Assembly (NCBI RefSeq): GCF_016806835.2
Contig: NZ_CP086111.1
Location: 4,581,471 to 4,645,470, forward strand
Direction: 5' to 3'
DNA from: Skermanella rosea
Lineage (GTDB): Bacteria > Pseudomonadota > Alphaproteobacteria > Azospirillales > Azospirillaceae
Length of the DNA stretch: 64,000 bases
This document shows, piece after piece, positions 10,384 to 64,000 of this stretch; positions within the stretch are counted from its first letter, which is position 1, and each line of letters begins with the position of its first letter. Made by a program: the position numbers and the translations under genes. The notes beneath the pieces are model-generated. The model was not told the DNA's origin. It did not search any database and was given only the letters and a program-made list of their open reading frames with translations.

Positions 10384-10618
10384 CGGATCCTGTTCCTCGC
10401 ATTTTCGGTGGCCCCGGGTTTTCCCGGCTCCGGTTACCGGAAGTCATGCATCGAATCGGGCAGCATGCGCCTTGATGAAGATCACGGCGAATCAGCGATT
10501 CATACCCACAAGGAATAATCCGTAAGGCGCGGAACGGAATCTCTTTACCGGCAGGTGGATTGTCTGATTTATTTGGGCTTCAAAGCAAGAATACTGCCTT
10601 CCAGACCGGAAGATGCGG

Positions 10619-11473
10619 ATGAAACGTTACTTGTGCCCGGTCCTGTGCGCCGGGCTGCTGAGCTTGGCGAGCAGCGGGGGATCTGCGCAGACGGGCGACG
10701 GCGCGGGCCTGTTCGCCGGATGGCAGAAGGAGGACAAGGCGCTGGCCCTCAACCTGGGCATCGGCGCCGCGGTCCTCGGGTGGGGCTTCGCCAACTGGGA
10801 CTACGGCACCGGCGGCCCGCGGTTCCAGGACGAGGGCTGGTTCGGCCGGGAAACCGACGAGGGCGGGGCCGACAAGCTGGGCCATCTCTACACGACCTAT
10901 CTGTTCACCCACCTGTTCGCCGGCCAGTACGAGCGCTGGGACTTCGAAAAAGACGAGGCGATCCGGTGGGGCACCCTGTCCGGCCTGGGGGTGAGCACCC
11001 TGATCGAGGTGGGGGACGCCTTCAGCGACCGCTACGGGTTCTCCTACCAGGACATGGTGTTCAACACGCTGGGGGCGGCCGCGGGCTATCTGCTCTGGTC
11101 CTATCCGGAACTGTCGCGGAAGATCGACCTGCGGGTGGAGTACAACCCGTTCCTGGACGGCGACTACCAATTCGACGTGACCACGGACTACGACCGCCTG
11201 GGCTACGTGATGGCGATCAAGGCCGACGGGTTCGACTTCATCGAGAACGAGTACCTTAAATACCTGGAACTGCATGTCGGGTTCCGGGCCCGGAACTACG
11301 ACGACTACAGCGACCGGCCCGACATCGACCTGCGCAAGCAGTTCGCCTATGTCGGCATCGGCCTGAACCTGTCGAAGCTGCTGGAGCCCCACCTGGACGT
11401 CCCGGTCTTCAACTATCTCCAGGTGCCCTACACCTATGTTCCCGCGACCGTCCGGGTTTCCGGTCCGCCCTGA
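10619..11473 (+). CDS. Exported DUF2279 (YfiM-like) protein
   Basis: A 284-residue envelope protein. It has a signal peptide of about 22 residues ([16 protein letters not shown] then GGSAQ). The central domain has the DUF2279 pattern [18 protein letters not shown], with a His-containing helix, and later [20 protein letters not shown]. The C-terminal third alternates polar and aromatic residues ([36 protein letters not shown]), as in a beta-barrel wall, so an outer-membrane location is possible. The second ATG is chosen because GGAAG lies 6 bases ahead of it; the ATG at 10613 is an alternative. Its end overlaps the oppositely oriented remnant of a chemoreceptor by about 40 bases. The role of the family is not known. 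Confidence 0.65.
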
Positions 11474-12790
11474 AGCGGGGCGGTCCGGTCGAGGACCAGG
11501 GTGAAGCGGGTGCCCCGGCCGGGCTCGCTGTCCACGGCGATCCGGCCGCCCAGCACGCGGGTGACCAGGGCATAGGTGATGTGCAGGCCGAGGCCGCTGC
11601 CGCCGAAGCCCAGCCGGGTGGTGAAGAAGGGGTCGAAGATCCGCGGCAGGTCGGCGGCCGGGATGCCGCGCCCGTCGTCGATGACCTCCAGTTCCTGGGT
11701 GCCCTGGGCGGCGCTGGTGACGGCCCGGCTGATCTCCGACGTGGCGGCGTTCTGTTCCTCGACCGCCGCGGCGATCACCGAGCTGATGCGGGAGACGTTG
11801 TCGACGATGTTGGCGACCTCCGTGATGTCGGCGGCGGTGCCGTCGGTCGAGGCCTGGATCGCCCCGATATGCTGGGTCATGTCGACGGTGGCGCGGGCGG
11901 TCTGGGCCGCGAGTTGCTTGACTTCGTTGGCGACCACGACGAAGCCCTTGCCGGCCTCTCCGGCGCGCCGCCGCCTCGATCGTGGCGTTCAGCGCCAGAA
12001 GGTTGGTCTGGGCCGCGATGGAGTTGATCAGGCTGACCACGTCGCCGATCCTGCCGGCGGCGCCCACCAGGTTCCTGACCTTCTCCACCGCCTCCTGGGC
12101 GCGCCGCGAGGCTTCCATCGAGACGGTGTGCGAGTTCAGCGAGCGGGCGGCGATCTCCCGGATCGAGGCGGCGAGCTGTTCCACCGCCGCGGCGACGGTC
12201 TGGACGTTGGCGCTGACCCGGTCGGCCGCGACCGACGCGGCTCCCGACATGTGGCTGTTGCTGTCGGCGGTCCCGTGGACCACCGTCGCCGAGGAGGCCA
12301 TGGCGGACGAGGTGGTCTCCAGCAGGGACAGATCGCGTTGTCGCGGAAGGTGACGACGGCGGAAGCCATCCGCCCGATCTCGTCGCGCCGGTGGGTCGCG
12401 GGGATCGGCGCGTGGACGTCGCCGCCGGCCAGGGCGGTCATGATCTCGATCGGGCGGGTGATCCGGCGCAGGATCAGGGTCAGGGCCAGCAGCAGGCAGA
12501 CCAGCGCGATCGCGCCGACCAGGACGATGCGCCGGGTCGTCTCCTCGATCTTGGCGTAGACTCCCTTCAGGCTCACCGCCAGTTCAAGGGTGCCGACGGG
12601 CTTGCTCTTGCCGCCGGCGCCGTAGACCACGGGGCCCGCTCCACGATCAGGTCGGCGGTCGCCGCCTTGACGTCGCCATGCTCGGAGAACACTTCCCCGG
12701 TCGTGGCGGTCAGCCGGCTGTAGACATAGTCGTGATCGGAGGCTTCGGCGGAAGATGGTGAGCATGGCGGATTCCGTTCTGGACCAAATG
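11434..12790 (-). pseudogene. Decayed methyl-accepting chemotaxis protein running into a histidine kinase ATPase end
   Basis: Read leftward, the pieces of a chemoreceptor come in order but in several frames. First a periplasmic sensor fragment (HDYVYSRLTATTGEVFSEHG). After a shift near 12630 come VGTLELAVSLKGVYAKIEE, a membrane helix (VLVGAIALVCLLLALTLIL) and a HAMP domain (RRITRPIEIMTALAGGD). After a shift near 12335 comes the start of the signalling domain ([24 protein letters not shown]). After a shift near 11975 comes [13 protein letters not shown] up to [15 protein letters not shown]. There it joins directly, in the same frame, to a GHKL ATPase end ([25 protein letters not shown]). Three frame changes mean it makes no intact receptor. 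Confidence 0.82.
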
Positions 12791-12988
12791 CAGCCATGCC
12801 CCGAAGCGGAGCCGAAGCGACTCTTTTCTGTCAATTTCTTGAAATGTGCATTCACCACCGGACACCGGTCGGCGGCCCGGCATGATCCGGGCATGCTCGA
12901 CGGGGAGCGCGGGTGCGCGGTTCCCTCGCGCAACGCCTCGGGGTTAAGATCCGGCAAGGAATATGAAAAGGACGAAGGGAGGAAAGCC

Positions 12989-14146
12989 ATGCCGGCGACA
13001 CCGGAACCATACCGGCTCCATGTGCCCGACGATGCGATCGAGGACCTGCGCGAGCGGCTCGGCCGGACCCGCTTTCCCGACCAGGCGCCCGGCGAACCCT
13101 GGGCCTTCGGCACCGACGTGGACTGGATGCGGAGCTTCACGGCCTATTGGCGGGACCGATTCGACTGGCGGGCGCAGGAGGCGCTGCTCAACGGGTTTCC
13201 CCAGTACAGGGTGCCGCTCCACGGGATCGACCTGCATTTCCTCCACGTCCCGGGAAAATCCGCCGACGCGATGCCGCTGCTGCTGTCGCACGGCTGGCCC
13301 GGATCGGTGTTCGAGTTCCTCGACCTGATCCCGCGCCTGACCGACCCCGCGGCCTTCGGCGGCGATCCGGCCGACGCCTTCACCGTGGTGGCGCCGTCCC
13401 TGCCCGGCTTCGGGCTGTCGTTCGCGCCCGGGCAGAAGCGTTTCGGCGCCGAGGAGATCGCCGACTGCTTCGCCGCGCTGATGACCGGGGTGCTGGGATA
13501 CGACCGGTACGGCGCCCAGGGCGGCGACTGGGGATCCTTCATATCGTCCCGGATCGGCCATGCCCACCGGGACCATGTGGCGGGCATCCACCTGAACCTG
13601 ATGCCGCTGCGGCGCGACCCGGCGATGGTCGGGTCCCCCACCCCGGAGGAGCGGCGCTACCTGGAGGAGCTGAAGGTCTTCCTGAAGGAGGAGACGGGCT
13701 ACCAGTGGATCCAGGGGACCCGGCCGCAGACCCTGGCCTTCGGGCTGACCGACAGCCCGGCCGGGCTGGCCGCCTGGATCGCCGAGAAGTTCCGGGCCTG
13801 GTCGGACTGCGGGGGCGACGTGCTGTCGGTGATCGACCGGGACCGCCTGCTCGCCAATATCGGCCTGTACTGGTTCACCGGGGCGATCGGATCCTCCTTC
13901 TGGCCCTATTACGCCCGCCTGCACGGCCCCTGGCCGATCCCGGAAGGCGGCACGGTCGACGTCCCGACCGGCTATTGCCAGTTCCCGACCGAGATCCTGC
14001 GCCCGCCGCGGTCGATGGCGGAACGTACCTTCACCGATATCCGGCGCTGGAGCGTGATGGAGCGCGGCGGCCACTTCGCCGCGATGGAGCAGCCCGACGC
14101 CCTGGCCGCCGAGATCCGCGCCTTCTTCCGGCCGCTGCGCGGCTGA
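12989..14146 (+). CDS. Epoxide hydrolase family protein (cytoplasmic)
   Basis: A 385-residue alpha/beta-fold hydrolase with an N-terminal epoxide hydrolase (EHN) lid domain, about residues 4-110, starting YRLHVPDDAIEDLRERL. The catalytic core shows the oxyanion motif SHGWPGS, the nucleophile Asp in AQGGDWGS, and the general-base His in ERGGHFAAMEQP near the end. Members open epoxides to diols through a covalent ester. The ATG follows GGGAGG by 8 bases; a further upstream ATG at 12755 only adds unrelated sequence. No signal peptide is present, unlike the related gene at 34173. The gene stands alone after the broken chemoreceptor and is convergent with the 2H phosphoesterase gene. The natural substrate is unknown. 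Confidence 0.88.
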   Translation: MPATPEPYRLHVPDDAIEDLRERLGRTRFPDQAPGEPWAFGTDVDWMRSFTAYWRDRFDWRAQEALLNGFPQYRVPLHGIDLHFLHVPGKSADAMPLLLSHGWPGSVFEFLDLIPRLTDPAAFGGDPADAFTVVAPSLPGFGLSFAPGQKRFGAEEIADCFAALMTGVLGYDRYGAQGGDWGSFISSRIGHAHRDHVAGIHLNLMPLRRDPAMVGSPTPEERRYLEELKVFLKEETGYQWIQGTRPQTLAFGLTDSPAGLAAWIAEKFRAWSDCGGDVLSVIDRDRLLANIGLYWFTGAIGSSFWPYYARLHGPWPIPEGGTVDVPTGYCQFPTEILRPPRSMAERTFTDIRRWSVMERGGHFAAMEQPDALAAEIRAFFRPLRG

Positions 14147-14161
14147 CCGGGGAAGCGGCGG

Positions 14162-14683
14162 TCACTCTGCGAAGGGGAACTCCCCCAGCGGCTGCCACGG
14201 CCCGCCGAGATAGCGCCACAGCAGCAGGCTTTCGCCGACCACCCCGAACGGCTCGAAGCCGGCTGCGAGCCGTTCCAGCAGGGCGCGCGCCTCGGCCGGG
14301 GCCGCCTTGTTCTGGACGGTGACGTGGGGCCGGAACGGCTGCCGGTCCTGCGGGGTCAGATGGGCTGCCCAGCGGGCCGCCAGCGCCGCCCGGACCTCCG
14401 CCAGGGCGGGAGCGTCGAAGCCATAGGCGACGCCCTTCCCCAGGAAGCGCAGCCCCGTCGCCCGGAGGAGCGGCCGGGAGCGGCCGGCCAGCGCCTCCCG
14501 GAGTCCGGCGGCGATGCCGGCCGGGTCGTCGCCGGGAAGGTGGTGGAACAGGGTGAGATGCGCCGGCAGGAAGTTCCTCTCCGGCGGGAAATGCGCCCGT
14601 CGCAAGGCGTCCAGCCGGGCGAAGGAGTCGCCGTCCATCCCGAGCGTCAGGATCAGGGGCGCCGGTCCGCCCGGCGCCGTCAT
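14162..14683 (-). CDS. 2H phosphoesterase / 2'-5' RNA ligase-like protein
   Basis: A 173-residue protein of the 2H superfamily, recognised by its two His-x-Thr motifs: HLTLF (about residue 42) and HVTVQN (about residue 125). Each would supply one catalytic His. Relatives (LigT/ThpR) open or close 2',5' and cyclic phosphodiester bonds in RNA or small nucleotides. The length fits the small bacterial members. There is no signal peptide. It is convergent with the epoxide hydrolase gene and has no obvious partner. Confidence 0.82.
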   Translation of the reverse strand: MTAPGGPAPLILTLGMDGDSFARLDALRRAHFPPERNFLPAHLTLFHHLPGDDPAGIAAGLREALAGRSRPLLRATGLRFLGKGVAYGFDAPALAEVRAALAARWAAHLTPQDRQPFRPHVTVQNKAAPAEARALLERLAAGFEPFGVVGESLLLWRYLGGPWQPLGEFPFAE

Positions 14684-14922
14684 GGCATCCTCCCCGGCGA
14701 AACGGCCGCGGTGACTCGTCCCATGAATTCGCCCAAGGCAATACCATGGCGGGCAATGCCTATTCCTTCGGCAAGATAACAGTATATATCAATTTGTTGG
14801 GATATGACCCGGTTATGCTCTGGCATGTCGGTGCGATTCTTTCGAAAACTTGAAGTCATTAACTGCTCGTCAATCCATTCCTTATAAATTGAAGCTATCG
14901 CAAGACAAAGAGCCCGAAAGCC

Positions 14923-15180
14923 ATGCCCTCCCCAGCCTCACAATCATCCTCAGCCACTCCCTACCCCGCCGCCTCGCCGGTCGATAAGCTCCACGCCGAG
15001 TATGCGGCTGCCCGCGACCAGATCCTGCGGCAGACCAACTCGACCCATGTGAGCGAGTGCCTGGACGCCATCCGCCCGCTGTGGGCCGCGTACCAGGCGA
15101 AGCTCGCGGCGCTGGCCTCCGCCGGGCAGGCCTTCGAGCCGGCCGCTGAGGAACCCGTCCTGGTCCGGCTGTCCGCCTGA
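14923..15180 (+). CDS. Small helical hypothetical protein
   Basis: An 85-residue soluble protein that I do not recognise. The first 20 residues are Ser/Pro/Ala-rich and probably disordered. Residues 21-68 (DKLHAEYAAARDQIL, then CLDAIRPLWAAYQAKLAAL) should form two amphipathic helices. A single Cys lies near the middle. Codon use fits the neighbours, which supports it being real. An AT-rich upstream stretch of about 180 bases could hold its promoter, but no site is clear. It is followed by the long mosaic repeat. Confidence 0.5.
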   Translation: MPSPASQSSSATPYPAASPVDKLHAEYAAARDQILRQTNSTHVSECLDAIRPLWAAYQAKLAALASAGQAFEPAAEEPVLVRLSA

Positions 15181-15289
15181 CAGGCGATATGGGCCGTTTC
15201 CTGCCGAAGGCCAGGAAACGGCAGGCGCCGGTCGGCAGAACGAACTTTCCCCGGACAAAGGACGCTTTTCCGGCAGAGCGTTCACCCTT

Positions 15290-15735
15290 CTGTCGTCATG
15301 GCCGGGCTTGACCCGCAGCTGTCCGGCACGATGATTGCTCATTCTGCGGAAGGGTTGATAGCGGGCAGAAACACTCCTTTTTCGTCATGGCCGGACTTGA
15401 TCCGGCCATCTTTCGCGGGAAGCATCGAAGCCTCCGTGCCTTGAGATCCGCGGGTCAAGCCCGCGGATGATGAACCGAAGGAGAAAACAGTCGCTAGAAG
15501 TGTTCTCAATGGTTGATAGGCAAGTACCGTGCCGGACAGCCGTGGACTTGATCCGGGTATCCCCCTGCACGGCGGCGCTGATGGAGTCTGCAAGCGATGA
15601 CCGGGTCAAGCCCGGTCATGACGATGAACAAAGGAACGCTCCACCAGAAAAACGCTCTCTGATTGAATCGGCAACAACCGTGTCGGACAGCCGCGGATCA
15701 AGTCCGCTCATGGCGGATGGGGTTCTTCTGCGTGC
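15290..15735. repeat. Mosaic intergenic repeat, copy 2
   Basis: This 400-base stretch has no convincing gene. It holds at least five palindromes of the GGCCGGACTTGATCCGGCC type (for instance at 15388, 15450, 15545, 15600 and 15690). From about 15370 to 15690 the order of palindromes and parts of the spacers match the copy at 3242-3560. The left end has an extra unit (GTCATGGCCGGGCTTGACCC) and the right end another partial unit. Short open frames inside give only the repeat-derived peptide type DDRVKPGHDD. Confidence 0.8.
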
Positions 15736-15956
15736 CTGATACACTGTCGGGCAACAGGCAGAATTCTTGCCGGATCACTTCGACTACGCAGCATGAACCG
15801 TGCAGAACGCCCCCAGAGGCTTGCCGCTCCGCTGCCCCCTCCCCCGCACGCCGCTCATTTTGCATGCGTATGAAACTTTTAAACATATAGGGGTATACAG
15901 TATAACGGCATCGACGTCCCGCCGAAGATAGTATTTCTGCTCCCCAAGGTGTCTTC

Positions 15957-16739
15957 TTGCTCTCGCCTCTTTGTCCCTGCTGCCGGAACTCCGGATATCC
16001 GATTGGTCAAATCGATCTCGGGGAAAGTTGCAACGATGCTTTCGAAGGGCGTCGGATGTTCCCCGACACAGGCAAGATGATCCGATACTCGGCCTGCCTG
16101 GCCTGCGACCACATTTGGACTACCTGCCTCGACCATTGGACTTCGGCTGACTTTCAACGGCACATCTACAATGACGATTATGTGCTCGCCGATCCCCCCT
16201 TCACGTACGACCGTCCCGCGCGCAACGCGGCACTGATCGACCGGATGGTCGGTCCCATGAAGGAAACGGTCGATATCCTGGACTGGGGCGGCGGCAACGG
16301 CCTCATGGTGCGCCTGCTCGCCGAGCGCGGCTTCCGTCATGCGGTCTCCTGCGACCCCTTCTACGGCGACGGCAAGCCGGCCCCGGGGCGGCGCTTCGAC
16401 CTGGTGACCTGCTTCGAGGTGGTCGAGCACGTCCCGGACCAGCAATCGCTGTTCGCCGAACTGGCCCGCCTGGTCGCCCCGCGGGGAGCCCTGCTGCTGA
16501 GCACCCTTGTGCAGCCGGACGACATCCACCGGATGGGACTCGGCTGGTGGTACGCACGCCCCCGCAACGGACATGTCCGCCTGCACAGCACGGTCAGCCT
16601 GGAACACTGCCTGGCGGTCGTGGGACTGGAACTGGTGTCGCTGTCGGCCGAGTTGCACGTCGCATTCCGGACGGCGGACTCACCGGTGGTCCAGGCGCTG
16701 CTCGCGGCGGAGGTCCATGAGCCGTCGCTGCCCGGCTGA
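15957..16739 (+). CDS. SAM-dependent methyltransferase with N-terminal Cys-rich (zinc) motif
   Basis: A 260-residue class I methyltransferase. The N-terminus has a Cys cluster (CPCC at residues 7-10 and CLACDH at about residue 48) expected to bind zinc, as in sugar C-methyltransferases. The SAM-binding loop is ILDWGGGNGLMV (about residue 108), followed by VSCDPFYG, DLVTCFEVVEHV and GALLLST. These features point to methylation of a nucleotide sugar or other small molecule, perhaps for surface polysaccharide. The TTG start is the only one that keeps the first Cys pair; AAGG lies just upstream. Local DNA upstream is AT-rich (TATAGGGGTATACAGTATAA), a likely promoter. It is isolated between the mosaic repeat and a convergent kinase gene, so no pathway can be assigned. 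Confidence 0.72.
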   Translation: MLSPLCPCCRNSGYPIGQIDLGESCNDAFEGRRMFPDTGKMIRYSACLACDHIWTTCLDHWTSADFQRHIYNDDYVLADPPFTYDRPARNAALIDRMVGPMKETVDILDWGGGNGLMVRLLAERGFRHAVSCDPFYGDGKPAPGRRFDLVTCFEVVEHVPDQQSLFAELARLVAPRGALLLSTLVQPDDIHRMGLGWWYARPRNGHVRLHSTVSLEHCLAVVGLELVSLSAELHVAFRTADSPVVQALLAAEVHEPSLPG

Positions 16740-16744
16740 ACCGC

Positions 16745-18193
16745 TCAGGGAAGCGACCGGGATACCGGGACGGCCGCGCCGAGGAGCGCCCGCTCGGGCG
16801 GCAGCTCGACCAGCACCTCGGTGCCGCTGCCGGGCTCGCTCGACATCCGGACCGTGCCGCCGTGGCGCTCCACGAGTTGGCGCACCAGCGGAAGGCCCAG
16901 CCCGGTGCCCTGGGCCTGGCGGGCATGCCGGCTGTCGGACTGCTCGAACGGCTGGAAGACGCGCGCGAGGTCGTCGGGCGGGATCCCGATGCCGGTATCC
17001 GTCACGACGATGACCGTGCGGCCGTCGGCGGGCCGCTCCAGCGAGACTCCGATCAGCCCGTCGGCGGGCGTGAACTTGATGGCGTTGGACAGCAGGTTGT
17101 CCAGCACCTGCCGCAGCCTCAGGCGGTCGCCGAAAACGCCGATATGGCCCAAGGCCGGCTCCAGTTCCACCCTGACGCCCGCGGCGCGGGCGGCTTCCCG
17201 CAGGTCGCGGATCGCTTCCGCGGCGACGGCGACCAGGTCGACGGCCTCCTCCCGAAGCTCCAGCTTGCCGGCCTCCAGCTTGGCGAGGTCCAGGATGTCG
17301 TTGATCAGCGACAGCAGCCTCTGGCCGGCATGGTGGATGTCGCCGATATACTCGGCCTGACGCTCGCCCAGCCGGCCGAAGATGCCGGTCATGAGGGCTT
17401 CGGAGAACCCCAGGATCGCGTTCAGCGGCGTGCGCAGCTCGTGGCTGACATTGGCCAGGAAGTTGGACTTGGCCTCGCTGGAGCGCACGGCGGCGTCGCG
17501 CGCGGCCACCAGGTTGCCGGTCAGGTCCAGGAGCTGGCGGTTGGTGGCGCGCAGCGTCGTCTCCGAACGCATGTGGCGGCGCATCAGCCATCCGAGGGCC
17601 AGCAGCAGGAGGACGAAACCCACGCCGTAGCCCAGCAGCTTGACCTGGAAGGCGCTCACCTGGGACTGCATCCGCCCGATCAGCGCGTTCTGCCGTTCGA
17701 CCACGGCGAGCGACATCCGCCGGTGGACGATGATGGCCTGCTGGACCCCTTCGTCGGCGACCCGGCGGAACGCGGCCGGGTCCGACGCCAGCAGCGGCAG
17801 TACCCGGTCGATCAGGTCGACGGCGCGGCGGACGTCGGCGACGCCTTCCTCGGACCTGATGCCCCGGGTGTGCCATTCGGAGCTGCCGGTCTCCGGCAGC
17901 GAGTTGATCCGGTTGAAGACGTTGTCCAGCCGGAGATTGATCTCGTCGACCTGCGCGGGGTCGGCCGATTCCGGCGTCACGTCGGGATGCAGCCCGCGGA
18001 TGGCGACCTGGAGGCGCAGAAGATCGCCGGCAAGCTGCCCGTCGTACCAGATGTCGGCGCCGCTGGCGATCTCCACCGACCGCTGGATGGCGATCAGATC
18101 GAAGACGAGCATCGGCGAACTGCACAGCAACAGTACGAAGGATACCGTCCAGACGATCTTGCCCAGGTCCATGAAACGCTCCCTGGCAGCCAT
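16745..18193 (-). CDS. Membrane sensor histidine kinase
   Basis: A 482-residue two-component sensor. Helix 1 (about residues 13-33, VSFVLLLCSSPMLVFDLIAI) and helix 2 (about 185-207) flank a periplasmic or outer domain of about 150 residues that is mostly helical. The HisKA box is NVSHELRTPLNAILGF, with the phospho-His near residue 250. The ATPase domain has NLLSNAIKFT, DTGIGIP, FQPFEQSD and GTGLGLPLV. There is no receiver domain in the protein and no response regulator gene next to it. It lies 61 bases downstream of a gene for an exported oxidoreductase-fold protein on the same strand, which may feed it a signal. A shorter start at MDLGK (seven residues in) is possible. Confidence 0.88.
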   Translation of the reverse strand: MAARERFMDLGKIVWTVSFVLLLCSSPMLVFDLIAIQRSVEIASGADIWYDGQLAGDLLRLQVAIRGLHPDVTPESADPAQVDEINLRLDNVFNRINSLPETGSSEWHTRGIRSEEGVADVRRAVDLIDRVLPLLASDPAAFRRVADEGVQQAIIVHRRMSLAVVERQNALIGRMQSQVSAFQVKLLGYGVGFVLLLLALGWLMRRHMRSETTLRATNRQLLDLTGNLVAARDAAVRSSEAKSNFLANVSHELRTPLNAILGFSEALMTGIFGRLGERQAEYIGDIHHAGQRLLSLINDILDLAKLEAGKLELREEAVDLVAVAAEAIRDLREAARAAGVRVELEPALGHIGVFGDRLRLRQVLDNLLSNAIKFTPADGLIGVSLERPADGRTVIVVTDTGIGIPPDDLARVFQPFEQSDSRHARQAQGTGLGLPLVRQLVERHGGTVRMSSEPGSGTEVLVELPPERALLGAAVPVSRSLP

Positions 18194-18254
18194 CAGCGGG
18201 TACGAGGTCGCGGTAGCTTGGGGACGGGACCGCGACGCAGTTTCACGCGGTCCG

Positions 18255-18944
18255 TCATTCCACCATGATCGATTTCAGTTGCCAGACCCAGCGCGACAGG
18301 TAATCGCGCTGGCCCAGTTCCGGAAAGGCGTGTTGCGGATAGATCACCCAGATCGGGCCGCGGTCGCGCCGCGACATGTATTCGCCATCCCGCTTGAGGG
18401 CCAGCATGACGGGCCAGGTGCGGGCGTCGGCGGCCGGGGTCGTGCTCTCGAACTCGTTGAGCGCGATCAGTCTCAGCGTGGTGGCGGCCGGGTCGGCGCC
18501 GACCGCTTCGAGCAGGGCCGAGAGCAGGACCCCTTCGAACACGGAGGGTTCGACGGTCCAGCTCGTCAGGGTGGTGAAGCGGACCAGCCCCAGGGATTCC
18601 AGGGTCGGCAGGTCGAAGCGGATCGGGCCGTCGGCGGCGATCTTGCCACCGATCGTCAGGATGACCGGGCCCTTCGGCTCCGGGAAGTCCATGCCCGCTT
18701 TCAGCGTCGGCTCGGTGACCCGCTCGTAGACGGGCGAGGAGGCCTGCGCCGCCGCCTGCCGGGGAGCCGCCGCAAGGCCGACGGCCACGAGGCAGGCGAA
18801 CATCCCGGCAAGCACGAGCTTGAGGACACGGGGATTCGGCAATGATGATGATAAAGCGAAATGCTGCGCCACGGCGAGACTGCCCATGTCCGGGGGGACG
18901 AGTTGAAATACTATATGCACCGGTAGCGGTGCATCTGTTATCAA
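18255..18944 (-). CDS. Exported oxidoreductase-like protein (molybdopterin-binding fold, COG3915 type)
   Basis: A protein of up to 229 residues. A hydrophobic export signal lies at about residues 40-68 (LVLAGMFACLVAVGLAAA then AAAQA), so the true start may be the ATG at 18887 or a TTG near 18840 rather than the first ATG. The mature part resembles the sulfite-oxidase-type molybdopterin-binding fold in outline (ILTIGGKI, FDLPTLESLG, SWTVEPSVFEGVLLSALLEAVGA, YPQHAFPEL). The cofactor Cys of true enzymes is missing: the mature part has no Cys. I therefore take it as a binding or sensing protein. It is the first gene of a pair with the sensor kinase, which suggests that it presents a periplasmic signal. 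Confidence 0.6.
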   Translation of the reverse strand: MITDAPLPVHIVFQLVPPDMGSLAVAQHFALSSSLPNPRVLKLVLAGMFACLVAVGLAAAPRQAAAQASSPVYERVTEPTLKAGMDFPEPKGPVILTIGGKIAADGPIRFDLPTLESLGLVRFTTLTSWTVEPSVFEGVLLSALLEAVGADPAATTLRLIALNEFESTTPAADARTWPVMLALKRDGEYMSRRDRGPIWVIYPQHAFPELGQRDYLSRWVWQLKSIMVE

Positions 18945-19148
18945 ATTTGGTCATTCATTACTTAAGATCCGATGAAAAATCCCCGCGGCATGGTTTCAGA
19001 TATCCCCCGCGGACCTTTGTGATAGGGCATCGGCACCTTCTGTTTCCAAGTTCATATGACGGACGGCCGAAGAGTCGGCTTCGCCCGGACAGGGGCTTCT
19101 CCTTCGCTTCGGGCCCGACGCAGGGAACCGGATGCCTCGGCCGGCCCC

Positions 19149-20819
19149 CTAGAGCAGAATCGTCTCGCCCTTTCGGCGGACCCGGAACCAGCGGCAGCCG
19201 TAGCGGCCGAGGTCTATACTGACCTCGCCGTCCTTTCCCAGGGTGAAGTCGCCATGGCCGAACAGATCGACCAGGCTGTCCCATCCCAACGCATTCTCCA
19301 CCTTGAAGCTGGCGCCGCATTCCTTGCCTCCCAGGTTGTGGATGGTCAGGACGGTCCGGCCTTCCCAATCGTAGCGCAAGGCGAAGACCGCGGGATCGGT
19401 CACCGGGACGACGCTCCAGGTGCCGTAGGCGATCTCGGGCGTCTCGTTGCGGCGGCGGATCAGGCGCTCCATCCAGTTCAGCAGGGAGGCGTCGTCGCGC
19501 CGCTGGGCCGCGACGTTCACGCCGGCCGGCCCCCAGCGCTTGCCCGAGACGACCGGGCGGCGGAGGTCTCCGGGCTTCGCGGTCGAGAAGCCGCCGTTGA
19601 TCTCGTCCGACCACTGCATGGGCGACCGCACGCTCAGCCGGCCCGGGATGTCGAGGTTCTCGGACATGCCGATCTCCTCGCCGTAGAACAGGACCGGGGC
19701 GCCCGGGAGCGCGAACATCAGGCTGTAGGCCATGTGGATCCGGGCCTGGTCGCCGTCCAGCATGGTCGGCAGCCGGCGTCGCAGGCCCCGCCCGAACAGC
19801 TGCATCTCCGGCTTGGGGCCGAACGCCCGGAAGACCTCCTGCCGCTCCGCCTCGGTCAGCTTGTCGAGCGACCATTCGTCATGGTTCCGGATGAAGTTGC
19901 CCCACTGGGCATCCGCCGGCAGCGACGGCAGGGCCTTGAGCCCGTGGATCAATCCGCTGGCGTCGCCCCGCGCCAGCGCCATCGCGAATGTCTGGTTGAG
20001 GTTGAAGTTGATGCACATGTGGAGTTCGTCGCCGTCGTCGCCGAAGAAACGGCGGACGTCTTCCGGCTCCAGGTTGACCTCTCCCATCAGGATCGCGTCG
20101 CCCCGGCGCCGGCCCAGGAAGGCGCGCAGTTCGCGCAGCCAGTCGTGGGGCGCTATGTCCATCTGCCCCTTGATGCCGATCGTCTCCAGCAGGAACGGCA
20201 CCGCGTCGACCCGGAAGCCGGCGAGGCCGAGTTGGAGCCAGAAGCCGATGATCTTGCGGATCTCGTCGCGCACGGCCGGGTTGGCGATGTTGAGGTCGGG
20301 CTGGTGCTTGTAGAAGCGGTGCAGGAAATACTGGCCGGCCTGCTCGTCCCACTCCCAGTTGCTGTCCTCCTTGTCGGGGAAGACCAGGCCGCCCTGGTCG
20401 CCGGCGGGAATCTTGTCGCTCCAGACATACCAGTCCCGGTAGGGCGACTTGGGGTCGGACCGGGCCGACTGGAACCAGGGATGCTCCTTCGAGGTGTGGT
20501 TGACCACCAGGTCCGCGATGACCCGGATGCCGCGGTCTCGCGCGGTCCGGATGAACTCGACGAAGTCGCCGAGCGAGCCCAGGCGAGGATCGACGCCGTA
20601 ATAATCGGTGATGTCGTAACCGTCGTCGCTGTTGGGCGTCGGGTAGAACGGCATCAGCCACAGGCACGTGACCCCGATCCCGGCCAAGTAATCGATCCGC
20701 TGGATCAGCCCGGCGAAGTCTCCGATCCCGTCGCCGTCGCTGTCCTGGAAGGTTTCCACGTCGAGGCAGTAGAAGACGGAGTTCTTCCACCAGGTGTCGC
20801 TGGTCCGGGTGATCGCCAT
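19149..20819 (-). CDS. GH13 alpha-glucosidase / trehalose synthase-like enzyme
   Basis: A 556-residue glycoside hydrolase of family 13. Conserved regions run in order: DLVVNHTS (region I), GFRVDAVPF with the nucleophile Asp (region II), GEVN with the acid Glu (region III) and RNHDEW with the stabilising Asp (region IV). The start WWKNSVFYCLDVETFQDSDGDGIGDF closely fits trehalose synthases and amylosucrase-like enzymes (first part WWKNSVFYCLDVETF). Trehalose synthase converts maltose to trehalose, and other members hydrolyse short alpha-glucans. The ATG at 20819 is chosen because the family begins there; a longer frame adds 16 unrelated residues. No glycogen or maltokinase genes are adjacent, so the exact activity is open. 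There is no signal peptide. Confidence 0.85.
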   Translation of the reverse strand: MAITRTSDTWWKNSVFYCLDVETFQDSDGDGIGDFAGLIQRIDYLAGIGVTCLWLMPFYPTPNSDDGYDITDYYGVDPRLGSLGDFVEFIRTARDRGIRVIADLVVNHTSKEHPWFQSARSDPKSPYRDWYVWSDKIPAGDQGGLVFPDKEDSNWEWDEQAGQYFLHRFYKHQPDLNIANPAVRDEIRKIIGFWLQLGLAGFRVDAVPFLLETIGIKGQMDIAPHDWLRELRAFLGRRRGDAILMGEVNLEPEDVRRFFGDDGDELHMCINFNLNQTFAMALARGDASGLIHGLKALPSLPADAQWGNFIRNHDEWSLDKLTEAERQEVFRAFGPKPEMQLFGRGLRRRLPTMLDGDQARIHMAYSLMFALPGAPVLFYGEEIGMSENLDIPGRLSVRSPMQWSDEINGGFSTAKPGDLRRPVVSGKRWGPAGVNVAAQRRDDASLLNWMERLIRRRNETPEIAYGTWSVVPVTDPAVFALRYDWEGRTVLTIHNLGGKECGASFKVENALGWDSLVDLFGHGDFTLGKDGEVSIDLGRYGCRWFRVRRKGETILL

Positions 20820-58485: not shown

Positions 58486-58983
58486 ATGTCAAGCCGCACG
58501 GTTCCGCAATTGAACAGGGTCTCGCCCCGGGGACCGGCGCGCTCGGCGCCGTCGCGATGCCGAACATCGAACTCGGTAACATCGCGGGCACGCTGGCGGC
58601 TGGCTCGGCCGGGAAGTGCCTCACCAAGAAATACCTGTTGGCCGGGATCTAAACGGGCCGCACCCTGGCCTCGGCTTGGTTCATCTTGACGCCGAAGGAC
58701 GCCCACCACGCTGCTCGTGTTCTCGGCCGTGATGGGCAGCCCGTGGCTAGCCACCGTGCCGCTCACCTCGGGCTTGGTCGTCCATTTCTACGGGTTGCGC
58801 TAAAGGGGCACGCTCTACGGCATCGTAGCTGCCATGGGCGTCTGGCTCGGCGGCCGGCTCTACGACTCCTATGGCAGCTACGATGGCTTGTGGTGGATCG
58901 GCATCGGCATCGGCGCCTTCAGCGCGCTTGTCCATCTGCCGATCCGCAGGTCCGCGTGGCCCCTTGCGGCGGTCCCAGCATAG
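58486..58983 (+). pseudogene. Decayed MFS transporter, C-terminal half
   Basis: The translation gives recognisable MFS segments in order: IEQGLAPGTGALG, IAGTLAAGSAGK, KKYLLAGI, an in-frame stop at 58650, then TGRTLASAWFILTP. After a one-frame shift near 58700 comes TLLVFSAVMGSPWLATVPLTSGLV, a second stop after FYGLR, and RGTLYGIVAAMGVWLGGRLYDSYGSYDGLWWIGIGIGAF in pieces to the final TAG. A block of about 15 residues is missing before GVWLGG, and the N-terminal half is gone. Two stops, a frameshift and a deletion mean it is dead. It lies at the edge of the region with foreign-looking codon use. Confidence 0.82.
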
Positions 58984-59439
58984 GGAAGCACCTGAGTGCC
59001 TGACGGGGCAGTTGGTGCGCGCTAAGCGTGCAACGGTCAACGGGTTTTTAGGTACGAAGGATTGCGCGATCCGGAATCCCGCTCCCGGACGCCAGGCGGA
59101 GTCCGTCAATTCCGCCACTCTGAAGTGAGTGGACGGGCTCATCGACCCTCGCCTGCACGAACGAATCGGGGGGGGCTTCCGCCGATCGAAGCTGGAGCGC
59201 GTCACGCGCCCAAATCGATGACATCACTGCAGCGGCTCGGCCCAATGCAAGGGGCCTCCGATAAACCCGGCGCGGTTCAATTCAGTGTAGCATTGACAAG
59301 GGCGTCGTCCTTGAGATGAGCACAGTAGCAAACTGCTATCCACTTCGGCCGAGCGAAGACGCATGTGCCCGCGCGACAGATCGTATGATGCTCGTGTACC
59401 CTCAGCCTCAACGTGCAGGCTTCGTTTTGGCGAGTAGAT
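58984..59439. other. Gene-free stretch before the GTPase pair
   Basis: About 450 bases without a convincing gene on either strand. It is less GC-rich than the host average and has no visible tRNA, terminal inverted repeat or integrase. A TTGACA at about 59289 is followed after 17 bases by ATGAGC, a poor -10 match. It may hold the promoter of the GTPase genes and junction debris between host DNA and an acquired segment. Confidence 0.5.
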
Positions 59440-62400
59440 ATGGTGGTCCATGTAACTCAGGAGATTATCCAAAATTATCCTGACTTGAGCCAACTTCAGG
59501 CGCAGTCGGCGACCGGACCCCAAACGTATACAACCTGCATCGCAACCGATGAGCTAGCTCTGGCAACCAGCGAAGCCGTGGCTCGGAGCCAGGCAGAAAT
59601 TGAGCGGCTGGCCGGCCGCCTGGACGTATTCTTGGCCGGGATGCGGGCCGTCGCCGATAAAACGCTGATGAACCAGATCGGTGGAAAAGAAAGCGATTCG
59701 GCACGGCAGCTCACAGAGTTCCTGGATCAGTTGCGACACAATAGCGAAGATCTGCTACAGCGGCAGCGCTCAGCGCTGAAGACGTTCAACACTGTTCTAT
59801 TTGGCCGCACGGGTGCAGGGAAGAGCTCCATGATCACGGCCATGGCGCGCACCGATGGCAAGGCGGTATCGCATGGGGAGAGTGACTGGACGACCGACGT
59901 CAAGCCGCTCCCATGGAATTCATGTCTGATCTATGACACCCCCGGCATCAACGGGTGGGGACGAGGGCAAAGTCGCGATAAGCTGGAGGCACGTGCGCGC
60001 GAAGCGGTCGAGGTAGCAGACGTCGTATTGGTCTGCTTCGATACCCAGAGCCAACAGATTGAGGAGTTCGCCAAGCTTGCAGCCTGGGTAATTCATTACC
60101 GTAAACCCCTCATCGCTGTGCTCAACCAACGCAATCCCGTGTGGCGGGTGCCTGACCGGGTGCCGAGCGGTACAGCCCGCGCAAACCTATCGCGGGCGAT
60201 TGCAGAGCATGCGGGCAACATCCGAGACGAACTGGGCCGCCTGGGATTGGGAAACGTGCCACTCATCGCGGTCAACTCCAAGCGTGCGGTCGCTGCCCGT
60301 GCCGCCTCGCCGTTCGAGGGACCGGACCTGGAGGGCTTGACGAAACAGAGGGACGTCTACGGTTGCGAAACCCTTGAGGCTTGGTCCAACTATCGCCGCC
60401 TGGAGCAATTGCTGGTGCAGGCCGTCGGCGAGCACGCCGTCGCCTTTCGGCTTGGCGCGCTGAATGACCAGCTTCGTAGTGTGTTCCAAGACCTGCACTG
60501 CCAGTTCGACAAGCTCGGCAGCAACTCCCGGCTCGGTGCGGAGACCCTTGAAAAAGAGATGCTTGCGCCGCTGCTGCGGCTGGTCGGCTATCCGCGCAAG
60601 GACGATGCGGAGTGCCGTGCCGCCCTTGTCGTCGATGGACACGATTTGCTTGACGAGCTTGAGCAGCACCGCCGTGGTGCGTTCCAGGCACCGGCCGAGG
60701 GCGAGTACACACGGCTGACACGGAGCCTGATCGAGGCTGGGATCACTCCGTTGCGACTGACGTCCCTGAGAAACGCGGAAATGTGTATTTTCGATGCGTT
60801 CGAGTGCGGCAAAGAGATTGACGGCGAGAGTGTTCGGCTCGCCTGCTTCGATGAGCTGACCATGCGACGGATTGCTGAGACTGCCCTTGCGGAAGGTTTT
60901 GCCTATCTCCGCGACAGGGCCGCCCTCGCTGAGACGGACACCCGCTTTGCGCTAAACCTCCAGATCCGTGCCAACGCCATCGCCGGGGCCAGTGGGGATG
61001 GATGGAAACACAGCGCCTGGGCTCTAAAGACCGGCGGCATTCTAGCCGGCGCTTTCGGCGCCTTAGGTGGATTCGCGATCGCCAATTTCTGGAATCCGCT
61101 GGGCTGGGCAGCTGGCCCCGCTGCCCTTGTTGCACTTCTCGGCAGTGCAGGCGCGACCCTATTCGGCCTGTTAGGAGACTCCGCTCGCAAGGAGGCGGAG
61201 TCGAACCGCCTTGCGGCACGCCGTACTGCTATGGCCAGTATCCGGAAGACAGTTCACGCGACCTACGACAGGGTCACTGAAGATCTGATGGCACAGGTGC
61301 GGCAAACGGCAGTATCGGCCAGCGCCAAACTGCTGCTTGGGCCGGTTCGGCAGGCGTTAGAACTGCGGCGCATTGCGGAAATTTGCGGTGAGTTGACAAC
61401 TCGCCTAGCCCAGCAGATCGACGAACTTCCGATTAGGGTTTACCCTCAGGCGTTGCTTTGGGAAGTTGCGCGTCGTCAAGAGCAAGCGGCGTTTCCGGGC
61501 ATGGCCAACGCTTCGGCGCTGTATTGGCTGGGCGAGGACTGGATCGAGGATCCGCGTGGGCTCAGCCAACAGAAGGCCTCCATAGGGTCGGGGCGGACAG
61601 ATTGCTACAATTCCAAGCTCTTCGACAGCCTGTTTGCCAGAATGGGTCGCATCTTCGAGCGCGCTGATTGCGGCATCAATGGCCAGGATGCCGACACTTG
61701 GCTGCATGAGATGGCTGAGCGGTGTAGGGATGACCCGTTGGCGCAGAATACACTGTCCGAGTTGAAGACCATCGGCGAAGACGGGCGGCCGCGGATCCAT
61801 CTTGTGGGCGACTATAACTCAGGCAAATCCAGCTTCATTAAGCGCCTTCTCATCGAAGCCGGGCTGCCAGCGCCAGCGTCACTGGAAGTCGCGGCCAGAC
61901 CAACGACCGCTGCGTTGCTCGAATACGACTGCAATGGTCTGGTGCTGGTTGACGCCCCAGGCTTCCAAAGCGGTGACGCGGCGCATGCGGAGATAGCCTC
62001 GAACGCCTTTCCGGACGCATCCGCCGTGATTTTCCTTTTCCAGCCCAATCTGGTCCTGGGCGACGATCAAGCGCTACGAGCGGTGCTGCTGGGGGATGCT
62101 GAGCGTGGTCTGCTGGCCAAACGCGATCGAGTGTGCTTCATCGTAAACCGAGCCGATGAGCTAGGCGTCGATCCTGAATGGTCGCCAACGGTGTACGCGC
62201 AACTGACGGAGCGCAAGCGGCTGGAGTTGGTGCAGGCTCTGAAGTCTCGTGGGATTGAGGCCGACGAAGATCGCATCGTCTTTATGGCCAGTGATCCCTA
62301 TGGTCTTGTCGGCAACAATGTCGACGTGGACGCGTCGGCCTTCGATGCCCATCGCGCTTGGGATGGGTTCGACCACTTCAACGCGGCCCTGAACCGGGCT

Positions 62401-63384
62401 CGTCCTTCGCTCTTGGCGTCTGGTGTGGCGCGGTCAGTACTGGAAGGCGGCGTCGCGCGGCTGACGAGGCTGAAGGGCGACCGGCTGATCAGGGTCGTGA
62501 TGGGAACGCAAGCGCTTCGGGAGATCAAACGCGTCATCGAGGCCGTACGTGAAACGATCGGGAACGGACAACAACTCGGCGAACGGTTCTTCCATGACCT
62601 GCAATGCCTCGTCGAAGACTATGTATCTGCTCGAAAGGATGAGGTCCTCGGCGAACGCGACCCTGTGCGCCTGCGGATCAAGGCCGAGGCGCTTTCGCAG
62701 TGGTGGACCGACCCAGCGTTGCAGGTCGAGATGACACAATGGCAAATGCGGTGCGCCGAAGCGTTGGAATCGTGGTACGTACAAAGCATCGAGGCGCTCT
62801 CGCGACGTATGGAATCGGTCGAATTCCGGCAATCACTTCGAATGCCTGTAGAGCGCTATGACAGGATTCTTGATGATGCGCAAGGTAAGGGACCGGCACT
62901 TGAAGTAATTGATAAGATCGGACGGTCCTTAGGCGGTGCGACCCGGGATGTTGTTTACAGCATCGGCAAGGCGCTGGGCGTGAAGTTCAAGCCCTGGGGA
63001 GCAGTCAAATTGGCTCGGAGCCTCGCCAAGGCCGGTGCGGTGATCGCCGTTATCGGAGTCGTGGTTGACATTGCATTCGTGTTCGTGGACGAAAAGCGGC
63101 AGGCGGAACGCGAACGGCACCGGCACGAGTTAACTGACTTCTTGCGAGCATCATCGCACAGGGTCGTACACACCGCAGCCTTTGGAGACGAGGATCAGCC
63201 AGGCCTGCTGCCCCAGCTTGGGGACGCGTTGGCAATATTTGAGCGGCATGCGCGCGAACTGACCGAAGCCTACGACGCGCTGGCTGACGAGATCTCCTGC
63301 GAGGAAGAGTGGATCGAAACCTATAGGGCACTGACAGCACAAGCACTCGAGCGGCTTCAAAAGCGGGGACGGTCACATGTCTGA
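59440..63384 (+). CDS. Large dynamin-like protein with two GTPase domains
   Basis: A 1314-residue protein. The first GTPase has G1 GRTGAGKSS (residues 122-130), G3 DTPGI (166) and G4 NQRNP (229). A long helical region follows, with a Gly/Ala-rich membrane hairpin at about 532-580 (GGILAGAFGALGGFAIANFW). The second GTPase has G1 GDYNSGKSS (790-798), G3 DAPGF (838) and G4 NRADE (903), then another helical stalk and a hydrophobic segment at about 1194-1215. This is the bacterial dynamin-like plan, doubled in one chain. The next gene overlaps by 8 bases and encodes a third such GTPase. Codons are mixed at the third position, unlike the host genes to the left, which suggests transfer. ATG 59440 is taken; a GTG at 59413 is in frame. 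Eleos-type defence is the nearest known parallel. Confidence 0.8.
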   Translation: MVVHVTQEIIQNYPDLSQLQAQSATGPQTYTTCIATDELALATSEAVARSQAEIERLAGRLDVFLAGMRAVADKTLMNQIGGKESDSARQLTEFLDQLRHNSEDLLQRQRSALKTFNTVLFGRTGAGKSSMITAMARTDGKAVSHGESDWTTDVKPLPWNSCLIYDTPGINGWGRGQSRDKLEARAREAVEVADVVLVCFDTQSQQIEEFAKLAAWVIHYRKPLIAVLNQRNPVWRVPDRVPSGTARANLSRAIAEHAGNIRDELGRLGLGNVPLIAVNSKRAVAARAASPFEGPDLEGLTKQRDVYGCETLEAWSNYRRLEQLLVQAVGEHAVAFRLGALNDQLRSVFQDLHCQFDKLGSNSRLGAETLEKEMLAPLLRLVGYPRKDDAECRAALVVDGHDLLDELEQHRRGAFQAPAEGEYTRLTRSLIEAGITPLRLTSLRNAEMCIFDAFECGKEIDGESVRLACFDELTMRRIAETALAEGFAYLRDRAALAETDTRFALNLQIRANAIAGASGDGWKHSAWALKTGGILAGAFGALGGFAIANFWNPLGWAAGPAALVALLGSAGATLFGLLGDSARKEAESNRLAARRTAMASIRKTVHATYDRVTEDLMAQVRQTAVSASAKLLLGPVRQALELRRIAEICGELTTRLAQQIDELPIRVYPQALLWEVARRQEQAAFPGMANASALYWLGEDWIEDPRGLSQQKASIGSGRTDCYNSKLFDSLFARMGRIFERADCGINGQDADTWLHEMAERCRDDPLAQNTLSELKTIGEDGRPRIHLVGDYNSGKSSFIKRLLIEAGLPAPASLEVAARPTTAALLEYDCNGLVLVDAPGFQSGDAAHAEIASNAFPDASAVIFLFQPNLVLGDDQALRAVLLGDAERGLLAKRDRVCFIVNRADELGVDPEWSPTVYAQLTERKRLELVQALKSRGIEADEDRIVFMASDPYGLVGNNVDVDASAFDAHRAWDGFDHFNAALNRARPSLLASGVARSVLEGGVARLTRLKGDRLIRVVMGTQALREIKRVIEAVRETIGNGQQLGERFFHDLQCLVEDYVSARKDEVLGERDPVRLRIKAEALSQWWTDPALQVEMTQWQMRCAEALESWYVQSIEALSRRMESVEFRQSLRMPVERYDRILDDAQGKGPALEVIDKIGRSLGGATRDVVYSIGKALGVKFKPWGAVKLARSLAKAGAVIAVIGVVVDIAFVFVDEKRQAERERHRHELTDFLRASSHRVVHTAAFGDEDQPGLLPQLGDALAIFERHARELTEAYDALADEISCEEEWIETYRALTAQALERLQKRGRSHV

Positions 63385-64000
63385 AACTTCGCACATCACA
63401 GAATCGCTCTGGGCTCACTTGGCGACATTCCCGGCCACAAGGGAAGCGGTGTTAGAGCATCTAAACCGATGGAACGCATTCGCTGCCACTGACGTACTGC
63501 GGGTCATCATTTTTGGCGTTTACGACGCTGGCAAGAGCAGCCTGCTCAAGCGTCTGCTGGTGGAAGCAGGTGTCCCAGTGCCGTCCTGGCTCACGGTCAG
63601 CGCGCGCCGCGAAACCTTCGAGGCGTTGGAGATCGAGGCAGGCAACCTGATCTTCGTCGACTCGCCGGGCCTGAAAGGGGGCAACGATAGGCATGACGAC
63701 ATCAGCCGCAAGGCCCTGCAGCTTGCGGACGCATACTTATGGGTAATGCCGCCTCAACTGGTGACATCCGGACAGGCGGAAATCCTGGGCTTCCTCAAAG
63801 GAGACTTCTTCCATTGTAAACTTCCCCACGAGGCGGTCGTCGGCGCGACCATCGCGGTCATCGGCCGGATGGACGAGGCCGGTGTGGACCCGCCCGATAG
63901 TCCTGAAGGATACCGCAGCATCGTCGCAACCAAGACGGCCGAGTTCGAAGCGATGCTGCGCAAGGCGGGTATCGAGGGCGGTCTCGTCGGCCCTCTCTGC
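63377..64000 (+). CDS. Dynamin-like GTPase, N-terminal part (cut by window end)
   Basis: The first 208 codons of a gene that continues beyond the window. It has G1 GVYDAGKSS (residues 47-55), the type GxYxxGKSS shared with the second GTPase of the upstream protein. G3 is DSPGLKGG (from residue 95) and G4 lies in GRMDEAG (about 165). The region before G1 is a helical neck (SLWAHLATFPATREAVLEHLNRW in outline). The ATG lies inside the end of the upstream gene (8-base overlap), so the two are coupled and probably act as one complex on membranes. What the C-terminal part carries cannot be seen. Confidence 0.78.
   Translation, partial: MSETSHITESLWAHLATFPATREAVLEHLNRWNAFAATDVLRVIIFGVYDAGKSSLLKRLLVEAGVPVPSWLTVSARRETFEALEIEAGNLIFVDSPGLKGGNDRHDDISRKALQLADAYLWVMPPQLVTSGQAEILGFLKGDFFHCKLPHEAVVGATIAVIGRMDEAGVDPPDSPEGYRSIVATKTAEFEAMLRKAGIEGGLVGPLC

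Follow-up and report, generated by a model that had tools for sequence, protein, structure and literature searches.

A LeoBC–LeoA fusion and a second LeoA paralogue in Skermanella rosea, a probable Eleos-type dynamin system with three GTPase heads

The canonical arrangement of the bacterial dynamin system Eleos is one LeoBC and one LeoA, each as a separate chain; the paper that named it is said to be that of Millman et al. 2022. Here we describe a pair of overlapping genes with three dynamin-like protein (DLP) units at the right end of a 64,000-nucleotide stretch of the Skermanella rosea genome (G000:C1:4581471-4645470, hereafter the window), which we consider likely to be a dynamin system of the Eleos (LeoBC/LeoA) type that acts in phage defence and represents a separate, mobile subtype with three GTPase heads. 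Like Eleos, it combines both families in adjacent, co-directional genes with the LeoBC-type gene first, has a hairpin in LeoBC, and is patchily distributed and sometimes found on plasmids. Unlike in Eleos, LeoBC is fused here to a LeoA, a second LeoA paralogue is present, and all three units fall into separate clades.

LeoA/LeoB/LeoC of enterotoxigenic Escherichia coli (LeoA structure 4aur) shares with our locus the LeoA fold and family and a LeoBC partner encoded upstream of LeoA (PMC4159319), whereas LeoBC is split there into two genes and LeoA is single. In the sections of that paper cited here, LeoA was inactive alone and was proposed to pair with LeoBC, and Michie et al. state that they were unable to obtain enough LeoB and LeoC, whether each alone, both together or as a chimera, and that recourse to related systems might be necessary (PMC4159319). 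The question whether pairing with LeoBC is how LeoA works dates back to the LeoA structure. In our locus LeoBC is whole and joined to LeoA, so that the genes have been rearranged in the opposite sense.

Bacillus subtilis DynA, for which we know of no second gene supplying a third head, belongs to a different family. It is alike in having two complete DLP units in one chain, and a membrane-guarding role has been proposed for it (PMC6104087, PMC8844932); the cited part of the latter work describes delay of phage lysis at the membrane and surveillance against both antibiotics and phage. The heterotypic DLP pair Cj-DLP1/Cj-DLP2 of Campylobacter (5owv, 5oxf), which is among the fold matches of our proteins, triggers GTPase activity upon assembly and forms membrane-tethering tetramers (PMC6104087); its partners are separate chains joined via an assembly domain, whereas our locus has a third partner in addition to two that are covalently fused. 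In the excerpted text of the same paper, fused DynA is seen as a covalent version of a Cj-DLP-type pair, and multicomponent complexes were suggested by Liu et al. in genomes with many dynamins (PMC6104087); the added LeoA of our locus is a concrete case of a three-dynamin set. No description of the three-unit fused architecture was found in the literature searched, a scope to which the original Eleos-naming paper does not belong, and PMC10952713 has no mention of Eleos, dynamin, GTPase or Leo.

Family assignment and architecture of the gene pair

Gene 1 is a frame of 1314 codons from an ATG start (the alternative start GTG at 59413 gives 1323 codons), and its end overlaps the ATG start of gene 2 by 8 bases. 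The frame of gene 2 leaves the window with its first 208 residues inside and stops at L003:8611, 1140 bases beyond the window end, giving a product of 587 amino acids (L003 stands for local coordinates around the window, L003:2750 being window position 59279). The initial annotation had described overlapping genes with three GTPase domains, two of them in the 1314-residue protein, and open reading frames, P-loops and Pfam all agree with it.

By the PADLOC models of Eleos (PDLC03841 and PDLC03839, LeoBC and LeoA), residues 45-667 of protein 1 matched LeoBC (376.9 bits, E = 6.5e-113, model positions 9-564 of 601), and the same protein matched LeoA (254.3 bits, E = 8.1e-76), with the best stretch at residues 767-1293 (unit A1, as distinct from the LeoBC unit, BC). 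Protein 2 (unit A2) matched LeoA over residues 27-533 (228.6 bits, E = 4.8e-68). Gene 1 is a LeoBC-LeoA fusion, and gene 2 is a second, paralogous LeoA; the presence of a complete LeoBC plus LeoA within the large protein, and of an additional LeoA paralogue behind it, goes beyond what had been annotated. A profile built from nine fused relatives (see below) aligned in its second half, A1, to residues 22-556 of the 577-residue LeoA chain 4aur (E = 8.4e-18). The locus has a LeoBC-type DLP, two LeoA-type DLP units and the LeoBC-type gene in first place; it does not have the canonical layout of one LeoBC and one LeoA on separate chains, and it is therefore filed as a variant. PADLOC would probably label the pair Eleos.

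In Pfam, MMR_HSR1 and Dynamin_N passed their cut-offs in both proteins, MMR_HSR1 twice along protein 1 and once in protein 2, and DLP_helical passed in protein 1; general GTPase and dynamin models were the only ones above cut-off. The first P-loop had been read as AIG1/IRG-like, a reading that is not supported: Pfam gave no match to either family at E up to 1, and the first head matched MMR_HSR1 instead. DynA, named in the initial annotation beside LeoA and LeoBC as a family to be searched, stayed far below its cut-off (NCBIfam NF052648, 14.1 versus 1600 bits), whereas the PADLOC models of LeoBC and LeoA matched.

Predicted structures pointed to the same family. The A2 model (mean predicted local distance difference test, pLDDT, 74.5; predicted template modelling score, pTM, 0.63) had LeoA 4aur as its best PDB match in Foldseek (1.8e-10), followed by IniA, a chain of the Campylobacter pair and BDLP, and the model of protein 1 (residues 60-1259, pLDDT 66.9, pTM 0.42) also matched 4aur best (5.4e-8). 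IniA, BDLP, the Campylobacter pair and mitofusin were further matches of the models, and GIMAP7, Irga6 and Irgb10 ranked below LeoA. Protein 1 was modelled as two successive units, each of a G domain, a long helix, a low-confidence tip and a return helix, and the general dynamin-like plan of a G domain followed by a long helical stalk with a tip is predicted with helices of 75-95 residues. The resemblance to Eleos that had first been noticed from the sequence is thus carried by PADLOC E values from 1e-113 to 1e-68, by 4aur as the best fold match and by the defence genes beside relatives described below.

All P-loops were intact in the nine complete members of the fused type (27/27 units). The switch-2 motif DxPG was invariant in each unit (D166/P168/G169 in BC, D838/P840/G841 in A1, D95/P97/G98 in A2), and the fourth motif was constant within each unit type, being NxRN in 9/9 BC, NRxDE in 9/9 A1 and [SG]RxDE in 9/9 A2 units. 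The Asp of the fourth GTPase motif usually selects guanine; in the BC head the motif ends in Asn instead, so that the nucleotide specificity of this head may be unusual. Among four unfused LeoBC proteins, one matched the fourth-motif search pattern, as NxKN. In the linker, W696, L697, G698, W701 and I702 (W-L-G-x-x-W-I) were invariant in 9/9 members; this WLGEDWI motif lies inside a low-confidence stretch of the protein 1 model (model 630-664).

The membrane hairpin ascribed earlier to the large protein was found as a hydrophobic hairpin at residues 532-580 of LeoBC, with hydropathy peaks at residues 532 and 561; the membrane contact itself is a prediction. Two such peaks were present in BC of 8 of the 9 members and one peak in that of Rhodococcus, and the hairpin residues W551, N552, P553, G555 and W556 were invariant in 9/9. 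At residues 1198-1216, A1 has a segment with a mean hydropathy of 2.71 over 19 residues, and a C-terminal hydrophobic segment of A1 was seen in 8/9 members. Judging from hydropathy, the hairpin and the A1 segment would both insert into the membrane.

Conservation, distribution and phylogeny of the fused type

Among 72,556 plasmid records, one matched at E 1e-15, the mobilizable 35.9-kb plasmid pn6 of Nostoc, where the fused gene encodes 1314 amino acids and the second one 619. A search of genome contigs with a two-sequence alignment gave nine loci (L036-L044), from Pseudomonas (2, one of them P. mandelii), Synechococcus, an Acidobacteria metagenome-assembled genome (MAG), Geodermatophilaceae, Tsukamurella (2), a Cyanobacteria MAG and Rhodococcus, organism names being taken from the record titles. 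The two MAG loci are cut by contig ends and were excluded from the tree and from the count of complete loci; L039, reaching into A1, and L043, with the LeoBC part only, agree with the fused type as far as present. In 8/8 other complete loci (the 7 uncut contig loci and the Nostoc plasmid; two Pseudomonas, two cyanobacteria, four actinobacteria), the fused BC-A1 gene is followed by A2 on the same strand. Since all three GTPase units recur in every one of them, chance is excluded. The fused three-unit form of these known families makes up a conserved subtype of its own, whose genes are inherited together. LeoBC and LeoA thus come ready-joined in one chain, in at least three phyla, and the two should be makeable and testable as a single protein.

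The PADLOC LeoBC and LeoA models both matched 9/9 fused proteins, and the LeoA model matched 9/9 A2 proteins, at E up to 1e-10; each A2 scored higher against the other A2s than against any A1. A search of phage records and viral contigs gave no relatives, so no sequenced phage carries the pair at that sensitivity. On Nostoc pn6, which is recorded as circular, an annotated protelomerase gene (L005:13809-15161) overlaps the A2 end on the opposite strand.

The pair is rare. It was found in 1 of 82 family genomes (at E 1e-20; 5 of the 82 are of the genus), 1 of 385 class genomes and 1 of 398 genomes drawn from the phylum, the window's own genome each time. At E 1e-20 the LeoA model matched three of the 398 genomes (the window's, G306 and G133). 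A loose LeoBC search (E up to 1e-10) reached 125 of the 398, most matches covering only part of the model, with strong near-full-length matches in the window's genome and G306 only and a weaker one in G133.

Four unfused pairs were examined for comparison, in G306 (LeoBC of 711 plus LeoA of 568 amino acids) and on plasmids of Klebsiella (698+569), Pseudanabaena (842+580) and Rhodovastum (754+567). All 8 proteins were confirmed by PADLOC, and each pair has one LeoBC (698-842 amino acids) and one LeoA (567-580 amino acids). LeoBC-like genes matched 5 plasmids, of which 2 are typed as conjugative and 1 as mobilizable. The best LeoBC match was 3e-152 among the nine fused proteins versus 1.7e-109 among the four unfused pairs; since the model scores fused members best, fused forms may already sit among recorded Eleos calls, and the makers of the model may have had fused-type proteins among their sequences. 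With its length of 601 positions, the model does not include the LeoA part. In Rhodococcus, one of the genera with the fused type, Eleos has been described as extremely enriched (PMC10482375). Three Klebsiella plasmids (CP067932.1, NZ_CP054968.1 and NZ_CP116215.1) share an identical LeoBC match, and on the conjugative IncHI1B plasmid CP067932.1 the unfused LeoBC/LeoA pair is annotated merely as 50S ribosome-binding GTPases.

A maximum-likelihood tree was calculated from 36 G domains over 231 columns, with the LeoA-like row of G133 included and its LeoBC-like gene excluded. The fused-type BC units formed one clade of 9 (100/99), as did the A1 units (9; 98/90) and the A2 units (9; 98/91). A1 and A2 are sister clades, set off together from unfused LeoA by a fully supported branch (100/99), indicating that the LeoA duplication predates the spread among these lineages; BC groups with unfused LeoBC (92/85, not a starred branch). 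The window's BC, A1 and A2 each group with two Pseudomonas units. The G133 LeoA-like row falls on the LeoBC side (99/94) and not with LeoA, so that the five rows that carry the label canonical LeoA do not form a single group, and the positions of the unfused rows are uncertain owing to long branches (rvast, g133). As the simplest reading of the sequences, one LeoA duplication and one fusion would have been followed by co-transfer of the whole module. "Divergent", as the initial annotation had called this possible Eleos, is apt, since the units stand in clades of their own and protein 1 scores far below the NCBIfam cut-off for LeoA.

Proposed role in phage defence and alternatives

Neighbouring genes were scanned with PADLOC for 30 proteins, mostly longer ones by choice, from 7 loci (123 open frames, Leo genes included, were called in those 7 loci and G306 together). 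We found GajA of Gabija at L036 (756 bits), DrmA and DrmB of DISARM immediately upstream of gene 1 at L044 (814 and 250 bits), PglX and PglW of BREX/Pgl at L042 (1515 and 1009 bits), a type I restriction endonuclease and specificity protein of type I restriction-modification at L041 (574 and 202 bits), and DpdE of Dpd at L040 (283 bits) together with a DrmMI-like methylase. Weaker or candidate matches were PDC-M26A (L036) and PDC-M65 (L037), and the one neighbour scanned on the Nostoc plasmid was an MkoC-like candidate. Pfam searches of 10 neighbours added NACHT (L037), a DUF2357/PD-(D/E)XK protein (L036) and McrBC (L040); for three of the remaining seven no family was found, and the other four belonged to unrelated ones (pentapeptide, VWA, AMP-binding, dioxygenase). 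Named defence systems thus lie beside 5 of the 8 other complete loci, or 7 of 8 counting candidates. In a control of 10 proteins (5 around the window pair, 5 around G306), one exceeded 30 bits, a UvrD-type helicase with 117 bits on GajB, and one further protein had a weak 28-bit match; a neighbour was called strong when it scored well above this control level, the control being too small for a statistical claim.

By analogy with Eleos and DynA, and from these neighbourhoods, the pair would act in phage defence. The LeoBC-LeoA fusion fits the LeoA-LeoBC pairing model from the literature, and the presence of another LeoA points to a third role, a specialised one in which an oligomer is completed or gated. 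In the mechanism that we propose, gene 1 would join the membrane-anchoring LeoBC to A1 by a linker of about 80-100 residues, the LeoBC unit would sit on the inner membrane via its hairpin, and the LeoBC head would pair with the A1 head of its own or a neighbouring chain, as reported for fused DynA and Campylobacter DLP1/DLP2. A2 would be made in matched amount by overlapping translation, so that a third head completes or gates the oligomer. When the membrane is disturbed by phage entry, replication or holin/endolysin, the complex would cluster at the site and use GTP to tether, fuse, seal or remodel the bilayer, whereby infection would stall and fewer phages would be released. A more specific version, in which three non-interchangeable dynamin units form a distinct anti-phage machine, is put forward tentatively: as NxRN lacks the usual Asp, the LeoBC head may be a non-GTP or nucleotide-independent scaffold, A1 and A2 alone being GTP-driven.

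Several results weigh against an Eleos-type defence system. Protein 1 misses the cut-off of the NCBIfam LeoA model NF041922 (59.8 versus 325 bits) and no match of protein 2 to this model was listed; given also the DynA score, the pair falls outside the curated core of the two families, and all listed NCBIfam cut-offs were missed. There is cross-matching between the LeoA and LeoBC models, with unfused LeoBC proteins reaching 88-128 bits on the PADLOC LeoA model, above which the A1 stretch alone stands with 198.4 bits. In a sequence search of the PDB at E 0.01, the A2 profile retrieved only Der-type G domains and no LeoA. Template modelling scores (TM-scores) to bacterial dynamins were at most 0.38, so that the fold matches are family-level and not conformational, and the head-to-head arrangement of BC and A1 in the protein 1 model was discarded as not usable at a pTM of 0.42. 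In the neighbourhoods, 0 of 4 tested proteins matched PADLOC at the Synechococcus locus (L038), and no other defence gene was among the 5 proteins tested in the window's flanks (one of them a fragment). Finally, LeoABC has been tied in one host to vesicle release (PMC4159319, as far as the cited sections go).

This last point leads to the possibility that the pair helps in vesicle formation or secretion, the role proposed for LeoABC in enterotoxigenic E. coli; the dynamins would then release envelope vesicles or shape them, with an effect on phage being secondary. The protein families are the same, and deletion of leoA or leoB approximately halved vesicle markers in that host (PMC4159319, cited sections), but the pair is also present in actinobacteria (L040-L042, L044), which have a different envelope, Gabija, BREX/Pgl, DISARM and restriction genes adjoin its relatives, and its occurrence in 1/385 class genomes is patchy; we regard such a role as unlikely. 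General membrane-stress repair that is not phage-specific, like that of DynA under pore-forming antibiotics or of IniA, appears improbable as well. It would be in keeping with the two-DLPs-in-one-chain plan common to DynA and protein 1 and with the surveillance of membranes by DynA against antibiotics too (PMC8844932, cited part); however, stable retention in a lineage would be expected of it, whereas the insert is in 1/82 family genomes and the pair is plasmid-borne in Nostoc, and similarity to the DynA model is negligible. A function for the mobile element itself, e.g. exclusion of competing plasmids or phages by the carrier, might be read from the mobilizable Nostoc plasmid and the LeoBC-like genes on conjugative and mobilizable plasmids, but the insert in the window shows no further gene-sized frame and we consider this very unlikely. 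A housekeeping GTPase pair for ribosome assembly or division, to which the Der/EngA-type G-domain similarity might point, can be dismissed, as absence at E 1e-20 from 81/82 family genomes already refutes it, the composition is foreign and NCBIfam placed neither protein in a housekeeping family. Neither of the two outcomes that would have spoken against the initial annotation, placement in a housekeeping family and conservation of the locus across relatives, was seen. Phage defence by an Eleos-type system of three heads is the reading that we retain as the likely one.

Insertion site and features of the locus

A detailed comparison was made with the empty site of one relative, G080. Similarity on the left ends at L003:2750 and on the right resumes at L003:9042, so that the insert is 6291 bases long, where G080 has 159 unaligned bases. 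The right edge adjoins a tRNA-Ser(CGA) gene (L003:9050-9139) near the tRNA 3' end, and 4/4 other genomes of the genus retain both this gene and the adjacent DNA on the right, which by eye encodes ribosomal proteins L21/L27 and Obg. The foreign look of this DNA noted earlier was substantiated, with a G+C content of 59.2% in the insert versus 69.6% in the 20 kb to the left and 69.5% to the right, and a dinucleotide distance of the two genes of 102, where none of 49 comparison windows exceeded 76. The insert showed no recognisable integrase, no common word of 11-30 bases was found on either strand between L003:2601-3000 and L003:8601-9160 as a direct repeat, and apart from the two genes, the only gene-sized frames were ones that overlap these or the tRNA, small frames not having been searched against families. 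The features are collected in the table.

Table. Features of the gene pair and its insert, in window coordinates
Feature	Position	Strand	Basis
Gene 1 (BC-A1), 1314-residue fusion of LeoBC-type and LeoA-type dynamin-like units	59440..63384	+	Open reading frame, PADLOC
G1/P-loop of LeoBC head, GRTGAGKSS, residues 122-130	59803..59829	+	GRTG[AT]GKS in 9/9 complete members
Fourth GTPase motif of LeoBC head, NxRN, protein 1 residues 229-232	60124-60135	+	Motif search
LeoBC hydrophobic hairpin, residues 532-580, around NFWNPLGW turn; presumed membrane paddle	61033..61179	+	Hydropathy
WLGEDWI motif, residues 696-702, linker between LeoBC and LeoA units	61525..61545	+	Conservation
G1/P-loop of fused LeoA head (A1), GDYNSGKSS, residues 790-798	61807..61833	+	Motif, profile
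A1 hydrophobic segment, residues 1198-1216; presumed second membrane-contact tip	63031..63087	+	Hydropathy
Gene 2 (A2), LeoA-type dynamin-like GTPase, 587 residues, continues past window (ATG at 63377)	63377..64000	+	Open reading frame, PADLOC
G1/P-loop of A2, GVYDAGKSS, protein 2 residues 47-55	63515..63541	+	Motif
Inserted segment, about 6.3 kb in all, L003:2751-9041	59280..64000 in window	.	Similarity to empty site of G080

To the left of the insert lies the remnant of a transporter gene (window 58532-59021, L003:2003-2492), which in its matched part shares 84% identity with a copy at G000:C1:3738013-3738480 within a frame of 415 amino acids; from its sequence character we take this intact paralogue to be of the major-facilitator type. 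The initial annotation had placed the pair beside a dead transporter, and the remnant is real, whereas a link to the insert was not upheld: it is present at the identical site in G080 and thus belongs to the older chromosome, being older than or independent of the insert, and it was rejected as a part of the system.

Inside the insert, a tRNA-like sequence, Leu-like by eye, lies at L003:8659-8739 (+); it scored 19.1 bits versus an Rfam cut-off of 29, was not called by ARAGORN, and is perhaps a relic carried by or left from mobile DNA. About 22 kb downstream of the pair, a possible prophage (L004 ~10185-19805, G000:C1 ~4668184-4677804) shows minus-strand frames that by eye are terminase-like, major-capsid-like and lysis-like.

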